Source: Deltaproteobacteria bacterium
Lineage (GTDB): Bacteria; Myxococcota; SpSt-1050
Direction of reading: 5' to 3'
Length of the DNA: 64,000 nt
Assembly: GCA_026416535.1 (NCBI GenBank)
Contig: JAOAFA010000104.1
Coordinates: forward strand, 1-64,000
The notes beneath the pieces are model-generated. The model did no database searches and was not told the DNA's origin. It worked only from the letters and a program-made list of their open reading frames with translations. Shown here piece after piece: positions 26,594 to 55,121 of the stretch (the first letter of the stretch is position 1; the number at the start of each line of letters is the position of its first letter). A program made the translations under genes and the position numbers.

Positions 26594-28693
26594 ATGTATA
26601 TAAAAAAGAGCGCAAGACTAGGTGAGAAGGATGTGATATTCGAGATAGGCAAAATGGCAAAGCAGGCAGATGGCTCTGTCCTTGTTTCTATGGGAGATAC
26701 CTCTGTTCTTTGTACAGTGGTCCTTGGGTCAGAGTCTGAAGAGACACTGGATTTTCTCCCACTGACAGTTGATTATATTGAAAAGACATCTGCAGCTGGC
26801 AAGATCCCGGGCGGCTTTTTTAAGAGAGAGGGTAAGCCGACCGAAAGGGAAATACTTAATTCAAGGATAATAGATAGATCAATCAGACCACTATTCCCTA
26901 AAGCCTTTAATAGGGAGATTCAAGTAATAACAACGGTGCTCTCAGCTGATCCAGAATACGACCCTGATATTGTAGCATTAACCGGTACATCGCTAGCCCT
27001 TCTTATATCTAATGCACCTTATGAAACACCTATAGCAGGCCTGAAGATAGGATATAAAGATGGGAATTTTCTTTATAATCCTAGGACATCGATATTGCAG
27101 ACAAGTGAGATGGAACTGACAGCCGCCCTATCTAAGGATGCGCTTATTATGGTTGAGGGAGGGGCGAATATCATAGAAGAAAACATAATAGTCGAAGGAC
27201 TATTTGGTGCATTTGAGGTTGTAAAAGAGGTTATATCACTGCAGGAAGAAATAAGAAAAGAAGTTGGCAGAGAAAAATTAACTTATATTTCACCATGTAA
27301 TTTGGGTATCAAGGATAAGCTTGTAGATAGATATGGGGAAGCGTTGAAAAAGATTTTGCTGATATCAGGGAAAAAGAGAAGAAACGAGGAATTTAGGAGT
27401 TTCGTAGATACCGTCAAGCAGGAGATTTTAGCAGAGAAGATAATCAGTGAAGAAGACCCAGTTAATATAGAGGGGATCCTTGAAGATATCAAACGTGATC
27501 TTATTAGAGAAATGATTGTAAAGGAGGGTAGGAGGATTGATGGTAGAGGAGTCAATGATATAAGGCAAATATCTTGTGAAGTGGGATTGTTTCCTAGGAC
27601 ACATGGTTCAGCTCTCTTTACGCGAGGAGAGACTCAGGCCCTGGTAGTGACCACACTTGGAACAGCTGAGGACGAACAAAAGATAGAGGCTCTTGGTGAG
27701 GAGAGTAGCAAGAGATTTATGCTTCACTATAATTTTCCTCCATTTTCTACAGGTGAGGTCAAGTTCTTAAGGGCACCCTCAAGGCGAGAGATCGGACATG
27801 GCAATCTGGCAGAGCGTGCACTTTCAAAAGTAATCCCATCTGAGGAAAAATTTCCTTATACGATCCGTGTTTTATCTGACATACTCGAATCAAATGGCTC
27901 TTCTTCTATGGCCACGGTCTGCGGTGCTACCCTCTCCCTTATGGATGCAGGTGTTCCTATATCGGATCCAGTAGCCGGCGTCGCGATGGGACTAATTAAA
28001 GAGGGCGAAAAAGTTGTCGTACTAACCGATATACTCGGAGATGAAGATCACTGTGGTGATATGGATTTCAAGGTGGCCGGTACTCGTAAAGGGGTTACTT
28101 CAATTCAGATGGATATTAAGATAAAAGGTATATCAAAGGAGATAATGACAAATGCATTAGAGCAAGCAAGGGAGGCAAGATTGAAAATCTTAGATGTTAT
28201 GAATGAGACGATTGCCTCTCCAAGACCAGATATCTCACCCTATGCACCAAGGATTACAACAATAAGTATTAAACCTGATAAAATCCGAGATGTCATCGGT
28301 AGTGGTGGTAAAGTCATAAGGGAGATCATATCAAAGAGTGGAGTTATAGCCATTGACATAGATGATAATGGTTTGGTAAAGATAGCAGCCAATAATCAAG
28401 AGGCTGCCCAAAAGGCGGTTGCAATGATCGAAAACTTGACACAAGAGGTTGAAGTAGGTAAAGTCTATATGGGTAAGGTAAGCAAGGTAGTCGAGTTTGG
28501 CGCATTTGTAACACTTTTTCCTGGAACCGATGGCCTGGTCCACATATCAGAGTTATCTGATACAAGAGTTAATAAGGTAACAGATGTAGTAAGAGAAGGA
28601 GAGGATATCTTAGTAAAAGTCATTGGGATTGATAAGCAAGGTAAGATAAAACTCTCAAGAAAAGAGGCACTAAATCATCATAAAAAGAAATGA
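26594..28693 (+). CDS. pnp: Polyribonucleotide nucleotidyltransferase
   Basis: Full-length PNPase with KH (VIGSGGKVIREI) and S1 (GKVSKVVEFGAFV) domains; downstream of rpsO. Confidence 0.98.
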   Translation: MYIKKSARLGEKDVIFEIGKMAKQADGSVLVSMGDTSVLCTVVLGSESEETLDFLPLTVDYIEKTSAAGKIPGGFFKREGKPTEREILNSRIIDRSIRPLFPKAFNREIQVITTVLSADPEYDPDIVALTGTSLALLISNAPYETPIAGLKIGYKDGNFLYNPRTSILQTSEMELTAALSKDALIMVEGGANIIEENIIVEGLFGAFEVVKEVISLQEEIRKEVGREKLTYISPCNLGIKDKLVDRYGEALKKILLISGKKRRNEEFRSFVDTVKQEILAEKIISEEDPVNIEGILEDIKRDLIREMIVKEGRRIDGRGVNDIRQISCEVGLFPRTHGSALFTRGETQALVVTTLGTAEDEQKIEALGEESSKRFMLHYNFPPFSTGEVKFLRAPSRREIGHGNLAERALSKVIPSEEKFPYTIRVLSDILESNGSSSMATVCGATLSLMDAGVPISDPVAGVAMGLIKEGEKVVVLTDILGDEDHCGDMDFKVAGTRKGVTSIQMDIKIKGISKEIMTNALEQAREARLKILDVMNETIASPRPDISPYAPRITTISIKPDKIRDVIGSGGKVIREIISKSGVIAIDIDDNGLVKIAANNQEAAQKAVAMIENLTQEVEVGKVYMGKVSKVVEFGAFVTLFPGTDGLVHISELSDTRVNKVTDVVREGEDILVKVIGIDKQGKIKLSRKEALNHHKKK

Positions 28694-30249
28694 AGACGGC
28701 AAAGATAATTTTCCTTATAGCTGCTTTTGCTTTGTTTTCATCAAAAGGTAACTCTATTGATTGTACCCCTCCAAGTTGCACAAAGACAGAGCTAAAGAAA
28801 GGGGTAATATGGTATCATAAGACTTACTCAAATTTGCTCGGGGGTCCACAGGATGTTAATATTATCGATATCGACAATAATGATCCCCATATTGTAATAA
28901 AGCCTGTATATAAATCTTCATCTTCTTGTGAGAGAACCAGCTCTATGGGGAAGAGGACCGGGGCTTTAGCCGGTGTAAACGGTGGATTCTTCGACAGCGG
29001 AAGTGGCTGTACTCCTTTGGGATTGTTGAAGATTGATAACAAAGTCATTTCTTATGCTGTCTCTTATAGACCACCAAGGTCGGCAGTTGGTATCGCGCTT
29101 GACAAAACGATAATTTTTAGGAGGACAGGCTCTAACGACCCCTTTCCTGAAGCAATTCATGCACTCGGAGGTATGCCAAACCTTGTCAAGGATGGTAAAA
29201 AATATGTAACTATAACGGAAGAGCAGGCAGAGTCCATAGCAGGGTTAAATCCACGAACGGCGATCTGCAAAACCCCTAACAATCATTTCTTGATGATAAC
29301 TGTGGACGGAAGGGCTACAAATAGAACTGGGATGACCCTTGATGATCTGGCGCAATACCTCCTTTGGCTGGGGTGCAGTGATGGTATAAATCTTGATGGT
29401 GGTGGTTCCACTACAATGTGGATAAACCAGTATGGAGTGGTAAATCATCCTTCTGATGGCACTGAGAGATATGTGTCCAATGGCCTTTTTGTGTATTACA
29501 TTGATAATCTGCCTCCTGTAATAGAACATACCCCCATAAAAGAGAGTGCAAAAATGGATATAGTAATAAAAGCGAGAGTCACAGATGACAATGGATTAAA
29601 GGCGGTCAACCTTAAATTCAGAAATAAAGGAGATATCAGCTTTGTCTCAAGAAGCATGATTGACAAAGGGAATGATATTTTTGAAGGCACTATATATACA
29701 GATGAGATAAAGACAGATCTAATTCAATATTATATAGCTGCCTGGGATGGGACATTGAGAACTGTATTACCAGCAGATGCTGAAACTAATAATGTATATT
29801 TCGAAATATCTATTAAAAACTATTATATTGACGCCGGCCATGATGAAAATAATATAGGAGAAGAGATCCCAGTCCATGATGTTGCAATGAATAATGATGT
29901 AACAGAGATCAAAGATGTGTTCATCGAGAATGATATTTACTCGTATGGGGATTCCATTGGTGATTGGGATGACCACAGTGATGCTGAGAGGGATTATGGA
30001 TATAGCGACTATTTTTTTGGTGATACTGAACAGAAAGATTCTACTCAATGGGACACTTCTTTTTCTGACCTATATGATGTGCATGGTGATGACTCAAGCT
30101 CTTCAACGAGCGAGGATATACAATTGATAGATCATTTTTTGCCCAAAGACATAGGAAACCTTGCCGATATAAAGGGTGACAAGGAGATAGGAAGCCCTCT
30201 TTTAGAGAATAATGAGCAATCTGGTTGTAGCTGCGGACTTGTCGAATAG
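28690..30249 (+). CDS. Secreted phosphodiester glycosidase (NAGPA/DUF2233-like) with Asp-rich spacer and CSCGLVE tail
   Basis: Signal peptide; GVNGGFFD, TAICKTPNNHFLMITVDGR, LGCSDGINLDGGGSTTMW; C-terminal acidic spacer ending EQSGCSCGLVE. Confidence 0.85.
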   Translation: MKTAKIIFLIAAFALFSSKGNSIDCTPPSCTKTELKKGVIWYHKTYSNLLGGPQDVNIIDIDNNDPHIVIKPVYKSSSSCERTSSMGKRTGALAGVNGGFFDSGSGCTPLGLLKIDNKVISYAVSYRPPRSAVGIALDKTIIFRRTGSNDPFPEAIHALGGMPNLVKDGKKYVTITEEQAESIAGLNPRTAICKTPNNHFLMITVDGRATNRTGMTLDDLAQYLLWLGCSDGINLDGGGSTTMWINQYGVVNHPSDGTERYVSNGLFVYYIDNLPPVIEHTPIKESAKMDIVIKARVTDDNGLKAVNLKFRNKGDISFVSRSMIDKGNDIFEGTIYTDEIKTDLIQYYIAAWDGTLRTVLPADAETNNVYFEISIKNYYIDAGHDENNIGEEIPVHDVAMNNDVTEIKDVFIENDIYSYGDSIGDWDDHSDAERDYGYSDYFFGDTEQKDSTQWDTSFSDLYDVHGDDSSSSTSEDIQLIDHFLPKDIGNLADIKGDKEIGSPLLENNEQSGCSCGLVE

Positions 30250-44968: not shown

Positions 44969-46300
44969 TTACTTTATAACGTCGGGTACTGGTTCTGGTG
45001 CATCTTTGTATCCTAAAAGTTTTCTTAAAGAGAATCCCACAAATGGTTGTTGAGGGACGGGGATCTTCCCAGCTGCTATCCATACCAGGCCCTTCTCTGG
45101 GTCGAAAACAATGGCGAATAGCGCACCATATGTTGCGATACTTTTACCATTATCAAACTCATCTATGGGTGATTCTTCCCCAGTGTATGGGTTTATCCTA
45201 TCTCTTAAGACTTTGACTAAATTCTCTGGGTCAAGCATTCCATAGAGCGTGTCCTTACCATTGGGTTCAAGCAGTTGTGCATATCTGTCATATCTCAGGA
45301 TATTTGCCTCTTTTGTAGGTTCTTTGTCATAGTCTTTAGTCTCTTCAGCTAAGAAATGATTAGTAACGTATATAACACCATTCGAGTCCATTCTCCTCTC
45401 ACCTATATGCTTTGCTGTCATCTCAAATACTGATGCGGTCTTATTTTTACCATCAGCAATCATGAATATCTCTGTGCTCATATGCCTTTCTTTCAGTATT
45501 ATATCTCTAGCCTCATCAAGATTGTGAGCCTCTCTTACAATCTTAGCAAGCATCTGTACATGGCTTCGACCCTCGAGGGATGTCTGAGAAACATCTCTTG
45601 GATGAGCCTCATTAGATGCAATAGAGATACCCTCTACATTCATTGCAGAGTACGGGCTCAGATTCGCTGGGAATCCTATATACATGTGGGGTATCCCACC
45701 CTTAGGTTGCCTTACAAATATCGTCGGATTTTCAAGTATGTAGTCAATCTTAGACCAATCAAGTATCCTCCCGTGGTAAAGCCTCTTATCTCTTGTAGCA
45801 TTATGTGCTACCGCCGCTTGAGAACAGGCCTGCTTTGGCATACCATTCAAGAGATACTCCATAAACACATCCCCAAAATTTAAAATTATACACTTCTGAT
45901 AGGACCAACCAGTATCTTTTGCTGCATCTACAAGACCCTTGCATTCTTCTATGATCTCGGGATAACTCTGTTTAATAGCTATGTCTATCACCCCCATATC
46001 CCTTGCCATCTCCTCCTGCTGAGATAAGATAGGGTCTTTTTTGATAAACTCAAGACCTTTTTTTAGCTCATCTCTCAAAAGGGTTCCGTGTTGGTAACCC
46101 ATCTCATAAGGGGTCCCTTTTAGCCAAACAACCTTAAATATTCCTATCTGTTCTTTCTTTGGCTCAACAGATGGATATCTGGAGTCTTCGCCAATTGTTG
46201 AATCAAGGAAGGCATCCGAAAAATCAGGATGTGTATCGGTATCTCTATTTGAACAACCAAAAGTTAATAAACACAATAAAAGAAATAACCCCTTTTTCAT
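44969..46300 (-). CDS. C45-family (AAT-like) Ntn-hydrolase lipoprotein
   Basis: Lipobox TFGC followed by acidic linker; GYQHGTLLRDEL; ACSQAAVAHNATRDKRLYHGRILDW nucleophile region; SNEAHPRD. Confidence 0.8.
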   Translation of the reverse strand: MKKGLFLLLCLLTFGCSNRDTDTHPDFSDAFLDSTIGEDSRYPSVEPKKEQIGIFKVVWLKGTPYEMGYQHGTLLRDELKKGLEFIKKDPILSQQEEMARDMGVIDIAIKQSYPEIIEECKGLVDAAKDTGWSYQKCIILNFGDVFMEYLLNGMPKQACSQAAVAHNATRDKRLYHGRILDWSKIDYILENPTIFVRQPKGGIPHMYIGFPANLSPYSAMNVEGISIASNEAHPRDVSQTSLEGRSHVQMLAKIVREAHNLDEARDIILKERHMSTEIFMIADGKNKTASVFEMTAKHIGERRMDSNGVIYVTNHFLAEETKDYDKEPTKEANILRYDRYAQLLEPNGKDTLYGMLDPENLVKVLRDRINPYTGEESPIDEFDNGKSIATYGALFAIVFDPEKGLVWIAAGKIPVPQQPFVGFSLRKLLGYKDAPEPVPDVIK

Positions 46301-46312
46301 AAGAGCTCTCCC

Positions 46313-47647
46313 CTATTTATAACCAGAAAAATACTTACTGTGGACACAAAGAAATTCCTTTAGTATTTTACCAGCAACTCTCTCTCCTATAAGTGGATGA
46401 ACTGATAGTGCCTTCTCAGCAAGAGTGAGAGATTTGTTGAGAATAGCCTGGGCCGCCACATTTTCATATTCAGCAACCCTTTTTACAGTCTCAATAACAC
46501 TTTCAGGTAATTCAAATTCAATCTGCTTAGAATTGATACTCCCTCCTCTTATATAGCAGAACTTCTCAACCACGTATTCATCAGGTAAAAAGTTAAGTGT
46601 CCCTTTGTTGGGTAGAATCATTGGTATATTCAGATCTTTCTTCTCTCTTATTGCGGATATAATTCTCAATGCAACCTCGGCATACCCCTCTGACTCATTT
46701 TCAACAACCCGTCTCTTAATATTGTGGTATGCATAAGACATATATGTTTCGAATCGGTTATTGAGGTATTTCTCATATATCTGAATAAGTCTCTCAGGAT
46801 TTTCTTCCTTTAACAGATTTTCGACAAGCTCTCTATTGACTCTAAGCAGGTATTCTCCCCTTGTCTCAGCCTCGCTCATCATTCCTTTTAGTGCATCCTG
46901 TGAGCAGTAGTAATAATAGAGATATTCATTCTTAAAGAGTCCATCCTTTACAAAGATAGACCTTTCGAAAGGCCCATGGGCGATATTATAAAATTCTTCA
47001 CTCATTATGAGCTCTGGTAGTATATCTCTTGAGTCAGACAGTAGTCTTGTAGTCCAGCTAAGATGGTTTAAGCCCACTATCTCTGATTCAAAACTAAATC
47101 TATCTCTTTTAAGGAATTCTGAGGCATAAATCCTACAAGCATCGGCTGAATCACAGATGCCTATAACATCTTCAAAACCGGCAATATTAAGTGCTCTCAC
47201 AACAATTCCAGCGGGATTCGTAAAGTTGATAAGAATACAATTTGGACTCCTCTTTCTTATCTCTTCTGAATAACTAATGAGAGAAGGGATGCTCCTTGCT
47301 GCAAATGAAAACCCTGCAGCACCCGTAGTCTCTTGACCAATTATATTATATCTTAAGCAAATCCTCTCATCTATGGCCCTACCTTCCTCAAAACCCTCTC
47401 TAATAGTGAATACTACCGCATCAAGATTGTCAGAGAATTCTTCAATAGAACTACACTTGATAAGATCAATTTTCTTACCACTCTTGCTTATTATTGCTGA
47501 GGCAAGTTTGAGGATTGCATCTGTCTTTCTTGCATCGATGTCATATACTCTTACTTCCTCGAGCGCCTCTCCAAAATTGAAATCACTGAGCATCCTAATG
47601 ATTATTGGTGATCTAATACCCCCACCACCCAGAATTCCAATATTCAT
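46313..47647 (-). CDS. Glycoside hydrolase family 4 (6-phospho-beta-glucosidase-like)
   Basis: IGILGGGGIRSPIIIRML; NFTNPAGIVVRAL; GICDSADACRI; VGLNHLSW. Confidence 0.92.
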   Translation of the reverse strand: MNIGILGGGGIRSPIIIRMLSDFNFGEALEEVRVYDIDARKTDAILKLASAIISKSGKKIDLIKCSSIEEFSDNLDAVVFTIREGFEEGRAIDERICLRYNIIGQETTGAAGFSFAARSIPSLISYSEEIRKRSPNCILINFTNPAGIVVRALNIAGFEDVIGICDSADACRIYASEFLKRDRFSFESEIVGLNHLSWTTRLLSDSRDILPELIMSEEFYNIAHGPFERSIFVKDGLFKNEYLYYYYCSQDALKGMMSEAETRGEYLLRVNRELVENLLKEENPERLIQIYEKYLNNRFETYMSYAYHNIKRRVVENESEGYAEVALRIISAIREKKDLNIPMILPNKGTLNFLPDEYVVEKFCYIRGGSINSKQIEFELPESVIETVKRVAEYENVAAQAILNKSLTLAEKALSVHPLIGERVAGKILKEFLCVHSKYFSGYK

Positions 47648-48630
47648 TTGGATACCTCCGCTTGCTTTTTTATATCTCCTAATAAGAACAATCCCTTGTT
47701 TAGGTAGTACAAACCCATAATTACTTGACCTAAGATAAAGACCATATTTGAGGCAAATGTAGAGGCAAGTATATCAGCCTTCTCTCCATATCTTTCCAGG
47801 AGTATAAGGCTCATGCCTTGGAATGTCCCCAGTCCAGATGGAGTTATCGGTATGGCCCCTATAAAAAGTGATAAAATAACTAAGGAGATACCCTCTGAAT
47901 AAGGAACCTTTATATTAAAAAACCATAGCGCCATGACCATGTAAAACGCCTTCAAAAAGATCCTGGGAATTCTTACTATTAATATTGTAATCAGGTCTGG
48001 AAATGGGATAAGAATCAGAGCCCCAAGGAGTTGTCCTATTTTGTTGGACATGAGAAGAGATGAGACCCTCAGTTTATCATTTTTGAATAGCCACATAATC
48101 GAAAATCTCACGACAAGATACACAGGTATAACCATCATTAGACCCATAATTAGATAAGGCACAAAACTCGCTACGCCAATAACCTCTTTTTTGATACTCA
48201 ATCCCAAAGCAATTGTAAGGGATACAATATCTATAAACAACAGCAGCAACAGTGCCCCACCCACATAAAAGAAAGGAAGGCCCGATTTTTTATGATAGTA
48301 ATATCCAATACTCATTTGCCCTATTGCCTGATTTAAAAACCCAATAAGTCCCGAAATAGATTTTACAATGAGCATCTCATTAAAACTTGTATAGATTACC
48401 GATTTATCAATGAGCAGTTTAGTTCCTAAAACATCTACCAAAAAGACAATAAAAAAGAACACAATGCTTGCAGGGATGAAGTAATCATATCTCCCTCTTG
48501 ATAGAGAATCTACAAATCTCTCTAAAGAAACTACGTTTATTAGGTATAGCAGTATGACTATTCCTAATATGTAAGGAAAGAGTTTCCTGCCATAGTGCAG
48601 AAGTTTATTTTTACCTTCAATATTACCCAC
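47644..48630 (-). CDS. UPF0104/lysylphosphatidylglycerol synthase TM-region-like flippase
   Basis: Multi-pass TM; IPITPSGLGTFQG motif; ATG overlaps the GH4 gene in ATGA fashion. Confidence 0.85.
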   Translation of the reverse strand: MGNIEGKNKLLHYGRKLFPYILGIVILLYLINVVSLERFVDSLSRGRYDYFIPASIVFFFIVFLVDVLGTKLLIDKSVIYTSFNEMLIVKSISGLIGFLNQAIGQMSIGYYYHKKSGLPFFYVGGALLLLLFIDIVSLTIALGLSIKKEVIGVASFVPYLIMGLMMVIPVYLVVRFSIMWLFKNDKLRVSSLLMSNKIGQLLGALILIPFPDLITILIVRIPRIFLKAFYMVMALWFFNIKVPYSEGISLVILSLFIGAIPITPSGLGTFQGMSLILLERYGEKADILASTFASNMVFILGQVIMGLYYLNKGLFLLGDIKKQAEVSK

Positions 48631-48639
48631 AATATCCTG

Positions 48640-50790
48640 TTACTCAATTAGATTACAAGAACATGATGAGCCTGAGGTCTCATCTGACCCATAAATATCC
48701 CTTGAAATACCACCATCTTTTTCAACGTAAACATCAGGATAAGGTAAGCTACCATCTATTGAAGTGGTATCTTTCATAGGTACATCAACAGATATGTCAA
48801 GTGCCGGACCAAAATCATATCCCGCATCCTGAATAGGAACCTCTTTCTCGTCAATACACTGACCATCATAGCAAACCGCCGGTTCAGGACAATCTATTCT
48901 AAAACACGGATCATCCACACATTGGCCATCCTTACAGATTCTCCCCCATGCACAAATAACACCCCAGCATCTATCCTCAACGCAATTCCCCTCAACACAG
49001 GTCTTACCGAATTCACACCTTACATTAAAACATTTATCTTCGACACACTCCCCGTCAACACATCTCTTGCCACTTTCACACTTAACCTGATAACAACTCT
49101 TTACACAGAAACCATCACGGCAGAACTCATTTGGTTCACAATTTATATTCTTACATGGATTATCTATGCAGTTACTGTTTTTACATACCTTCCCTTCTTC
49201 GCACCCCATCACATAGCATGTTCCATCTAAACAAGCTCCATTTTTGCATATCCAATTTTCCGGACATACGAGAGACTCACAGGGGTCGATACATCTCCCG
49301 TCCTGACATATCTTCCCTTCTGGACATTCTACATCAAAACACTTATCATCTTTTAAGCACCATCCCTCTTTATTACATCTTCTACCTGTCGGGCACTCAT
49401 TATTAACACATGCAACTACGCACTGCCCTTTATAGCAGACCGCCTCTCCTCCACAGAGGTCCTTCCCCTCATCTACTTTTCCATTACAATTATTGTCAAC
49501 CCCATCACAAACTTCTTGTGGAGTGGGACCACACCCCCCACAACCATTATTCGGCAAGGGCGCATCACAGGACTTTTCATCCCATTTGCCATTTAAACAA
49601 TATTCATAGCCAGTTCCACATTGATTTGCACAAGGTCTCCTCATGACCTGATTATTCTCGTTCTCATCTGTAAATCCATCGCAATCATTGTCTATTCCAT
49701 CACATTGTTCTTGTGAAGGGGAGTATATTTGGATGCACTTCAAGACACTCCCCTCACACCTGTTTATTCCATATTTGCATATTCCAAACTTACCTGTATC
49801 ACATTCTTTGTTCTCATCTTCGTAAGATGGAGCGGTGCAATTAACCCACTTCCCCCTTTCGCAGCTTTCTACCCCTTTAGTGTTGCAAGCCCCCTCACAT
49901 TCCCTAGTAAGACCATCGTCTGTCTTGCCATTACAGTCATTATCTATCCCATCACAAATCTCTTTTGGAATCGTGATATTAAGAATTTTATTAAGTTCGT
50001 TTGCAAGTGTCTGTGGATCACTTGCGTTATACGCTTTATTATTAACTGCTGTCCCACCTGCTATTGCCATATCATTTAATGATTGGGCCCCTTTCGTGTT
50101 GTCACCATAGCCTATGACAAACGTCTTGATATCATAATAATTAGACTGGTATTGCGTAGCTCTAAGTTTAAGTACGGCGCCTACGGGATCACCACCGCAC
50201 GTCTCCTCACCATCAGTTAGAAGTATAACAAAATAAGGTCTACAATCTCTTACAGGATCTGATGGGAGTAGTTGGTTTACAAAATAATCCCTCATTGACA
50301 AGAGGGCCTTATCAATAGGTGTTGAACCATCAGCTCTCAATTCCTTATTCTGAGGATAGTTTTCATTATTATCCATCCATGACAAAATCTCCTGGGTATT
50401 TCCATCTCTTATTGGCACAAGAACCTCTCCTCCCTTTAGGCAGTTCTCACTTCCATCATAGTTAATAGTTCTTCCGCCATAAGCACTAGAAGGATTGCTC
50501 ACACCCTCTTTCTGATAGAACCTCCCAAGTCCAAATGTTATTTTATTTTGGAACGATTGAACCACTGAAGTCAAAACACTCTTTGCAGTGTATATCTTTG
50601 AGTTCTTACCCTCTCCATTACATGGGCTCCCATTTGAACCGTCACAATATTGTTCTACACCCTGCGGATTTTCAGTCATAGAGCCGGATGAGTCAAAGAG
50701 AATAAGCACATACGGCTTAATTGTCTGTGCATCGAGAACGACAGAAAACATTACAAATGAAACTAAGAGATAAAGATATTTCATTTTCAT
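48640..50790 (-). CDS. Secreted vWA protein with MopE-like and tandem Cys-rich repeats, Asp-rich spacer and CSCNLIE tail
   Basis: Signal peptide; LFDSSGSMTENP MIDAS; CDGIDNDCNGKTDDG, CDGIDNDCDGFTDE, CDGVDNNCNGKVDEG; ends SGSSCSCNLIE. Confidence 0.92.
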   Translation of the reverse strand: MKMKYLYLLVSFVMFSVVLDAQTIKPYVLILFDSSGSMTENPQGVEQYCDGSNGSPCNGEGKNSKIYTAKSVLTSVVQSFQNKITFGLGRFYQKEGVSNPSSAYGGRTINYDGSENCLKGGEVLVPIRDGNTQEILSWMDNNENYPQNKELRADGSTPIDKALLSMRDYFVNQLLPSDPVRDCRPYFVILLTDGEETCGGDPVGAVLKLRATQYQSNYYDIKTFVIGYGDNTKGAQSLNDMAIAGGTAVNNKAYNASDPQTLANELNKILNITIPKEICDGIDNDCNGKTDDGLTRECEGACNTKGVESCERGKWVNCTAPSYEDENKECDTGKFGICKYGINRCEGSVLKCIQIYSPSQEQCDGIDNDCDGFTDENENNQVMRRPCANQCGTGYEYCLNGKWDEKSCDAPLPNNGCGGCGPTPQEVCDGVDNNCNGKVDEGKDLCGGEAVCYKGQCVVACVNNECPTGRRCNKEGWCLKDDKCFDVECPEGKICQDGRCIDPCESLVCPENWICKNGACLDGTCYVMGCEEGKVCKNSNCIDNPCKNINCEPNEFCRDGFCVKSCYQVKCESGKRCVDGECVEDKCFNVRCEFGKTCVEGNCVEDRCWGVICAWGRICKDGQCVDDPCFRIDCPEPAVCYDGQCIDEKEVPIQDAGYDFGPALDISVDVPMKDTTSIDGSLPYPDVYVEKDGGISRDIYGSDETSGSSCSCNLIE
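48845..49430 (-). repeat. About nine tandem ~20-residue Cys-rich repeats (CxxxxCxxGxxCxxGxC-like) within the vWA protein
   Basis: CFDVECPEGKICQDGRC, CESLVCPENWICKNGAC, CYVMGCEEGKVCKNSNC, CYQVKCESGKRCVDGEC, CFNVRCEFGKTCVEGNC, CWGVICAWGRICKDGQC, CFRIDCPEPAVCYDGQC. Confidence 0.9.
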
Positions 50791-53090: not shown

Positions 53091-55121
53091 TTATTTCAGA
53101 TAAAACCTCCGATACTTTGTCTGATGAAGATGCCTTATGAATTCCGGGTTTATATTTAAAATACCCTGAGAGAGACCTTCTCTTCCGAAGTCTATTTCTG
53201 GTCCCGTCCACTGTGATTTATCAATCAAGAACACAAAATAATAGTCGGGGTCAATTGTGATATGCCGAGGCGAGGAAGAAAGTCGCGTACTAATCTCTTT
53301 GACATCACCCACATTGCCTATGTCTACAGACACAATTTTCTCTTCATAATTGGTAGATATATGTATCTGTAGATTTTTCAGTTCTTGATTTCCTGCTGTC
53401 TTCATAATCTTAAAAGACAGGTTTCCATTGACGAACTCAAAGTCAAACACTTTTAGTGTTGGACAGGGGGTCGAGTAGATCCATTCATTAAAAAATTTTT
53501 CCCAAAAATCGTAGTTGTTTGTGAAATTGATTAGAAATTCTCTCAAATCCTCGGTTGTGACACGTTTATGTTTAAATTTTTCATACCATTTCCGTAAAAA
53601 TGCATATCTATTTATATTAAAATCTCTTTCGAGCCTCAGCAAAATCATCTCAACAATTGAGGATCCGTACTTATAAAACTGGTCCAAGACATCATTAAAA
53701 TAGTTCATTATATCCTCTGAATCTGAGAATCTCAGGGGGACACCATATTGTGAGTATTCCTCCGCGGCAAACAACCGCCAATAATATTTCAACTTATCTA
53801 CTGTCTGTTTCTCAGTAATCAAAGGCATTATCTCATATATTGTGCTCCACTCAGTAAAGCCCTCTGCAAGCCAAAAGTGCGGCCAATCATAAAACATAAC
53901 ATTATTACCCCACCAATGATGGACAACCTCATGCGCTGTCACATACTGAGACTCTATTGGCTGAGCATTTATTATGCTGGAGCCTATCCAAATAATAGTT
54001 ACATGTTCCATACCACCGCCAAACTCTGGGATATCCGCCAACTGAAGTATCTTCCCAAAGTCATATTTACCCACAATCTCCTCCATCCTGTTTATGGTCT
54101 TGATTGCAGATGCAAATGCCTGCTTTGCCCTCGACAGATTAGATTTTAGAGCTATACCCTTTACTTCTATATCAGATTCAGTTTTCCCAATGCTAAATTC
54201 ATTATAATAATTGCTTGCCGCAAAGCTCAATGAATAGAGAGGTATTGGGGTGCTAAATTCAAAAGTGTAGATATTATTCCCATAATTTCTTATTCCCCCT
54301 ATACTATAGACCTTCCAATAATTGTCAGGAACTTTTATTGAGAGGGAGACTCTGTTTAGTATAATATTAAAATCATATTGTGGGGCGATACTGTAGCTCG
54401 ATTGGGGTACAAACAGCCAATAATGTGTGAAATAAGGCTCTGTAAATGGTCCTATTACAGATTCTTGGTAGTTTAACCTCCACCTCCTTAGTCCGAAGAG
54501 CTCGTTATTGGAATTTACAACGAAACTCATCTTTGTAGTTATTTTGTCACCCTTCTTATAGGGGGAGACACAAATAGTAATTTTAGAACCTTCATATACA
54601 TACTCTCCATCCACCGCTGTGATTAAATGATTATTACCAAAAAGAGTTATTGTATCACCATCAGATTCAGCTTCAACGGACACAATCTCATCTATAAAAT
54701 ACCGAGATGCCTTAAAATCTCTCAAATCTACTACTATGTCGAGTTCCAGCCCATTTGTATGAACTCTCTCTTCATATGAGCACTTGTGAACACCTACATC
54801 ATCTTCTAATGACAGATCAGAAAACTCTAATTCCTTACCTATTATATCATCGCTCACGTCCATATTCGTAAGATCCTCAATTACATCTTCAATATTGATA
54901 TCACTTAATTCAACATCTTGACCAATATCGAGCACCCCTTCACTATCCAGACTATCCCTGCTAGTGTCATTAATTATCCAATCGACATCTTGAAATACGG
55001 GCTCAACCATATCTGACCTATTTATATCACCTATGTTATACTCAACTTCACTATGTGAGCACCCCCACATTATTAAAACACATGTAAAAACAAGAAAAAC
55101 CACAAAGAAATCCTTTTCCAT
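53091..55121 (-). CDS. M1-family metallopeptidase lipoprotein with Asp-rich N-terminal spacer
   Basis: Lipobox IMWGC; HEVVHHWWGNNV...WLAEGFTEW zinc site; GGGMEHVT. Confidence 0.9.
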   Translation of the reverse strand: MEKDFFVVFLVFTCVLIMWGCSHSEVEYNIGDINRSDMVEPVFQDVDWIINDTSRDSLDSEGVLDIGQDVELSDINIEDVIEDLTNMDVSDDIIGKELEFSDLSLEDDVGVHKCSYEERVHTNGLELDIVVDLRDFKASRYFIDEIVSVEAESDGDTITLFGNNHLITAVDGEYVYEGSKITICVSPYKKGDKITTKMSFVVNSNNELFGLRRWRLNYQESVIGPFTEPYFTHYWLFVPQSSYSIAPQYDFNIILNRVSLSIKVPDNYWKVYSIGGIRNYGNNIYTFEFSTPIPLYSLSFAASNYYNEFSIGKTESDIEVKGIALKSNLSRAKQAFASAIKTINRMEEIVGKYDFGKILQLADIPEFGGGMEHVTIIWIGSSIINAQPIESQYVTAHEVVHHWWGNNVMFYDWPHFWLAEGFTEWSTIYEIMPLITEKQTVDKLKYYWRLFAAEEYSQYGVPLRFSDSEDIMNYFNDVLDQFYKYGSSIVEMILLRLERDFNINRYAFLRKWYEKFKHKRVTTEDLREFLINFTNNYDFWEKFFNEWIYSTPCPTLKVFDFEFVNGNLSFKIMKTAGNQELKNLQIHISTNYEEKIVSVDIGNVGDVKEISTRLSSSPRHITIDPDYYFVFLIDKSQWTGPEIDFGREGLSQGILNINPEFIRHLHQTKYRRFYLK

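Follow-up and report, generated by a model that had tools for sequence, protein, structure and literature searches.

A short cysteine tail without a transmembrane helix on exported proteins of a Myxococcota genome, most likely a variant of the MYXO-CTERM sorting signal

The closest described system is MYXO-CTERM with its protease, the myxosortase MrtX (TIGR03901 and NF040593; Guo, Haft and Wall 2025, PMC11980579). That study showed cleavage of MYXO-CTERM by MrtX in both M. xanthus and E. coli, and its dependence on the cysteine in M. xanthus; it also proposes that the cysteine is lipidated before cleavage, perhaps by an Lgt-like enzyme, and that MYXO-CTERM proteins are exported by the type II secretion system (T2SS) (PMC11980579). 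In the literature examined, LPXTG, PEP-CTERM, PGF-CTERM, GlyGly-CTERM and MYXO-CTERM are all described as tripartite signals with a membrane helix. An extended form of the CaaX box is the CaaaX pentapeptide, with CSLMQ and CMIIM as examples (PMC11121372).

Two proteins of the window and their orthologues

The window (the whole stretch of 64,000 nucleotides that was analysed) encodes an exported protein of 716 residues at 48640–50790 on the reverse strand, with vWA, MopE and Cys-rich repeat regions (Pfam PF00092 and PF11617 are both above the cut-off). It starts with the N-terminal signal peptide MKMKYLYLLVSFVMFSVVLDAQ and ends with ...DIYGSDETSGSSCSCNLIE and a stop codon. The short C-terminal tail, SGSSCSCNLIE plus the stop (48640–48675, reverse strand), has a CxC followed by exactly four residues, and the codons of CSCNLIE and the stop occupy 48640–48663. 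Upstream of the tail is an Asp-rich spacer (48676–48828, reverse strand), the first residues of which are DAGYD. The range 48640–48720 given for the tail in the earlier note does contain it, but also covers part of the spacer, which reaches ∼48828. A tail of the same kind, SGCSCGLVE plus the stop (30220–30249, forward strand), is found on an exported phosphodiester glycosidase (NAGPA) protein (28690–30249, forward strand; C-terminus ...NEQSGCSCGLVE), so that a second protein with a CSC-x-L-I-E type of tail, as had been claimed, is indeed present.

The vWA protein has an orthologue in the sister species (83% identity, from a whole-protein search that did not rely on the tail) which ends in GSSCSCTLVE. 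The orthologue in a genome from a different family of the same order (G002) is syntenic, is 59% identical and ends in SGSCSCATVGLY, and in G008, which is more distant, the tails of the vWA relatives are followed by the helix. Orthologues that end otherwise, without the cysteines, would have spoken against a sorting signal; in the sister species and the second family the cysteine tail is kept. The sister MAG Tomsk_43_40 (L034, DYEF01000033.1) is titled 'Bdellovibrio sp.' and groups with the Myxococcota here.

Directly downstream of the vWA gene is a gene for an LPG_synthase_TM-like membrane protein (47644–48630, reverse strand), which scores 0.1 bit under the Pfam cut-off. The two genes (47644–50790) are kept as a pair in three genomes of the order: this one, the sister species G001 and G002. 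The LPG_synthase_TM-like gene is a neighbour of the vWA gene and may at most be a candidate for a part in the tail system.

Number, form and conservation of the tails

The exact pattern C-S-C-x-[LF]-[IV]-E-stop occurs at eight places in the 2.96 Mb genome, compared with none for the reversed-pattern control. A relaxed pattern gave 20 matches (four in the control), 19 of which are the ends of long reading frames, and 25 matches in the sister species (two in the control). Proteins ending in C-x-C-x-Φ-Φ-[E/D]-stop number 19 in this genome and 23 in the sister species, 42 in all, whereas composition predicts ∼0.02 in ∼2,800 ORFs; a 256 kb sample of the genome held one further tail. As the two cysteines, the hydrophobic pair and the final E/D of these 42 tails were fixed by the search pattern, the ends were rechecked with a search for CxC near the end only. 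This gave eight more tails, with the ends SLLK, AFIY, EYLK, SVLF, SILF, SALF (twice) and NSLE. Exactly four residues follow the second cysteine in all 50 tails, including the eight variants found with the end unfixed, and nearly all read x-phi-phi-X after this cysteine (a CaaaX form). The terminal nonapeptide style described in the earlier note thus holds as a shared tail, but not as a strict final E: the last residue can also be D, F, K or Y. A second vWA/MopE paralogue group (L258, L259 and L263) ends in CSCS[IA]LF, which is not acidic, and may mark a sub-class of the tail.

Apart from Cys-7 and Cys-5 (42 of 42, fixed by the search), the tails have Gly at -8 in 34 cases and Ser or Gly at -6 in 41, with an acidic/serine run upstream. 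Asp makes up 16.8% of the spacer (the last 80 to the last 10 residues) and 7.2% of the bodies of the 42 proteins. The likeness of the two spacer starts (DAGxD) that had been remarked on extends to the last 150 residues of 21 of the 42 proteins, where the motif has a density of 3.9 per 1000 residues compared with 0.08 expected from the spacer composition (∼50-fold) and zero in the bodies. Two N-terminal lipoproteins of the window (53091–55121 and 44969–46300, both reverse strand) have an Asp-rich tether right after the lipid cysteine, similar to the tail spacer; for N-terminal lipoproteins of this genome the mean Asp fraction is 0.086, compared with 0.049 in other exported proteins.

At the N-terminus, each of the 40 tail proteins whose start is intact has a segment that is hydrophobic and signal-peptide-like, as judged by hydropathy. 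The ectodomains of the tail proteins are unrelated, with 49 Pfam families among the 42 proteins (examples are vWA/MopE, NAGPA, GH25, agmatine deiminase, M4 peptidase, C1 peptidase, kelch, SBBP and phosphoesterase); the idea of unrelated ectodomains sharing one tail, first put forward for two proteins, thus applies to 19 and 23 proteins in two species. No transmembrane helix is apparent at the C-terminus: the mean maximal hydropathy of the last 60 residues is 0.27, compared with 0.6–1.5 in MYXO-CTERM examples, and exceeds 1.6 in one of the 42 proteins. An Arg-rich cluster is also absent, with RR at the end of none of the 42. Six tail proteins, which form three orthologue families (L104/L116, L107/L134 and L112/L132), appear to have an N-terminal lipobox-like cysteine as well as the C-terminal tail, and possibly two anchors; because of this site the tail may be something other than a simple anchor in these three families.

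Over 13 reciprocal-best orthologue pairs, the pooled identity is 75% in the last nine residues, 37% in the spacer and 66% in the body, with the Cys and hydrophobic positions of the tail partly imposed, as both members of each pair were chosen by the tail pattern. The comparison of tail with spacer that the earlier note had suggested therefore supports its reading of the tail as a C-terminal sorting signal, as do the vWA orthologues.

Among 195 Myxococcota, the E/D-ending pattern is above background solely in this genome (G000) and G001. Tails of the G002 type are invisible to this pattern, and the true range therefore covers at least three genomes of one order, and perhaps more. We dropped the notion that the short tails are genus-specific, as the helix-free tails of G002, which belongs to the same order, merely end differently. 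Samples of ∼64–100 kb from each of four genomes without TIGR03901 (G003, G012, G035 and G037) contained no convincing short tails; those of G003 and G012 had helix-bearing cysteine signals instead.

Descent from MYXO-CTERM and candidate processing enzymes

TIGR03901 has no hits in this genome or in the sister species; it is present in 47 of 58 relatives and in none of 14 control genomes, a distribution from which the phylum is taken to be Myxococcota. The tail peptides did not match any of the family HMMs searched, including TIGR03901, although one short-tail protein matches NF041905, 'myxosortase-dependent metalloprotease'. The sole above-threshold TIGR03901 protein of G002 shares 36% identity, across ∼730 residues, with the short-tail proteins L112 and L132 (E values of 1e-141 to 1e-139). 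It carries GCGCASVGAGDD...LLALLAVLGAALAALRRRR, whereas the short-tail orthologues stop at GCSCNLLE and GCSCSLIE; in the alignment the GCGC of G002 lies over the GCSC of the short tails, after which the G002 protein continues with a helix and RRRR and the short-tail proteins with a stop codon. G002 has a mixture of forms: a second helix-bearing tail (CACASVGTGG...RRR) is found beside at least eight helix-free tails (CSCATVGLY, CSCATVGSP, CSCATVEL, CSCATISL, CSCSSVKV, CSCAVLTLE, CGCSTLGS and CSCTLVGFGVR), several of which share their first residues. The simplest history suggested by these sequences is that the helix was lost within this order.

The sequences themselves show the tail and its exact length, its occurrence on many unrelated exported proteins and its in-register homology to MYXO-CTERM; they also show that classical MYXO-CTERM is absent and that one predicted myxosortase is present. 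We consider the tail to be a real C-terminal sorting signal, for which the best description is a MYXO-CTERM variant that has no helix and that most likely works in the same way. As the helix and the Arg cluster, two defining features, are missing, we file it as a derived variant and not as a member of MYXO-CTERM. What is added to the earlier note is this identity as a MYXO-CTERM derivative without a transmembrane helix, together with the single myxosortase of the genome.

There is exactly one CPBP protease gene in this genome and one in the sister species. Against Mrt_core, which has a cut-off of 100 bits, the two proteins score 108.9 and 117.7, which classes them as myxosortases, and residues Glu127, Glu128, Arg132, Phe163, His167, His203 and Asn207 of the EExxxR, FxxxH and HxxxN motifs are invariant, with the catalytic residues intact. 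The CPBP protease has a Pfam Rce1-like match of 64 bits, and its predicted model (pLDDT 94.9) has a CPBP-like fold. The best fold match in the PDB is SpdC, a CPBP-family protein, with a probability of 1.00, a TM score of 0.64 and a weak E value (0.06); a sequence search of solved structures with the myxosortase gave no match. A long stem of 1.16 changes per column leads to the pair in the tree, which carried a composition warning. The protease of the sister species also scores 78.4 bits against MrtJ (cut-off 75). An lspA-lgt-lgt tandem is found in this genome (L187, 2958–5321 of contig 81) and in the sister species. Two lgt genes in tandem also occur in G002 (L188 and L189 are the further loci of this set), and many Myxococcota have two or more Lgt proteins; the correspondence between Lgt copy number and MYXO-CTERM is not strict, with G047, G039 and G033 having MYXO-CTERM and one Lgt. 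A T2SS-type secretin is present in this genome, and the sister species has a gspD-E-F-G-H run (assigned by eye from gene order and sequence).

On the basis of the myxosortase, the lspA-lgt-lgt tandem and the T2SS-type secretin, together with the published work on MrtX, the most likely route is as follows. The tail protein would be exported by Sec and its tail cysteine lipidated at the periplasmic face, with one of the two tandem Lgt proteins as the candidate enzyme; the residues after the lipidated cysteine would then be removed by the myxosortase, the sole CPBP protease of the genome, and the trimmed protein displayed on the surface by the T2SS. A helix-free precursor with no evident membrane hold for the modification counts against this processing, as do the apparent N-terminal lipobox of three families, the loose relation of Lgt copy number to MYXO-CTERM and the failure of the family HMMs to match the tail. 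We put at roughly two in three the probability that the tail is a sorting signal that arose from MYXO-CTERM when the helix and Arg cluster were lost, and forms a lipidated, myxosortase-trimmed cysteine tail of exported proteins.

The strongest competitor, which we regard as unlikely, is a genuine sorting or secretion signal that the myxosortase does not cleave, such as a tag for the T2SS or a periplasmic receptor in which the two cysteines would be disulfide-bonded or carry no modification. An intramembrane protease would find no transmembrane helix to cut, and most of the tails finish in an acidic residue, as though it were the end that is recognised; the N-terminal lipobox-like site in three families also fits such a tag. 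However, the superfamily of the myxosortase includes enzymes that cleave substrates without a helix in CaaX processing, the tail signature is the MYXO-CTERM signature in register, and these genomes have kept a single CPBP gene, which encodes a catalytically intact myxosortase for which they contain no other known substrates. An element for metal binding, disulfide formation or oligomerisation, for example with the cysteine pair bound to a surface partner, is improbable: a CxC pair is able to coordinate a metal or to make a disulfide, and some of the bodies are Cys-rich, but many tail proteins are not, and the x-phi-phi-X end, the fixed length and the MYXO-CTERM register would be left unexplained. 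We give very little weight to a vestigial MYXO-CTERM, a functionless short remnant left by decay of the helix; the clear descent from a helix-bearing form and the long stem branch of the myxosortase would suit it, but not a tail that is more conserved than the adjoining spacer (75% versus 37%), that keeps its four residues past the second cysteine in 50 of 50 cases even when the last residue varies, and that ends dozens of unrelated genes. Finally, truncation by sequencing errors, or a stop codon that is read through into a helix, is close to negligible even for draft MAGs, given the same end at dozens of loci in two species, a helix-like stretch in nine of 42 three-frame read-throughs (several of them the start of the next gene, with no common sequence) and short tails in G002 without a MYXO-CTERM-like helix and RRR behind the stop. 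A read-through or frameshift that restores the helix was rejected, as no common helix lies behind the stop.

Comparison with known systems

A natural helix-free version, reduced to the cysteine core of the signal, suggests that the signal can do without the helix. It also bears directly on a question of the myxosortase field, namely whether lipidation of the cysteine comes before cleavage and which enzyme performs it, because such a substrate has no other obvious route to an intramembrane protease. A tail of about nine residues is a simple substrate for biochemistry. As current HMMs miss the tail proteins, the surface proteomes of such genomes are under-annotated.

The tail system shares with MYXO-CTERM the Gly-Cys-x-Cys signature, a low-complexity spacer, an N-terminal signal peptide, dozens of adhesin-like or hydrolase-like substrates, a myxosortase-family CPBP protease in the genome, a T2SS and a direct orthologue with the helix-bearing form. 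It differs in having no transmembrane helix, no Arg cluster and no TIGR03901 match, and in ending four residues past the second cysteine (five to eight in the neighbouring family). JDVT-CTERM, Synerg-CTERM and other Cys-bearing signals processed by CPBP proteases are tripartite with a helix. JDVT-CTERM/MrtJ and Synerg-CTERM/MrtS (NF033192 and NF040589) resemble the present system in their invariant cysteine and related proteases, but the short tail is not tripartite and has no helix. GlyGly-CTERM/rhombosortase, PEP-CTERM/exosortase and LPXTG/sortase also sort unrelated ectodomains by the C-terminus, although all are tripartite with a membrane helix and have another signature and other enzymes. 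With N-terminal lipoproteins (Lgt/LspA) the tail may have lipidation of a cysteine in common, and some lipoproteins of this genome have a similar Asp-rich tether; the tail, however, is C-terminal, has no lipobox and would be processed by a different protease family.

The parallel to eukaryotic CaaX processing by Rce1 is striking: both have a cysteine, a small residue, two aliphatic residues and an end residue (CSLIE and CSLME compared with CSLMQ) and no helix, and the genome has a protease of the CPBP/Rce1 superfamily. Unlike eukaryotic CaaX proteins, the bacterial tail proteins carry export signals, so that processing would take place outside the cytoplasm, and with such signal peptides cytosolic prenylation of the tail cysteine is unlikely. 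The parallel is one of analogy and not of membership. We tentatively suggest, at somewhat less than even odds, that the tail is an outward-facing prokaryotic counterpart of the CaaX box: a helix-free pentapeptide in which the cysteine would be lipidated after translocation and the last four residues cut off by an Rce1-superfamily protease, and which would have evolved from a helix-bearing signal within one order of the Myxococcota.
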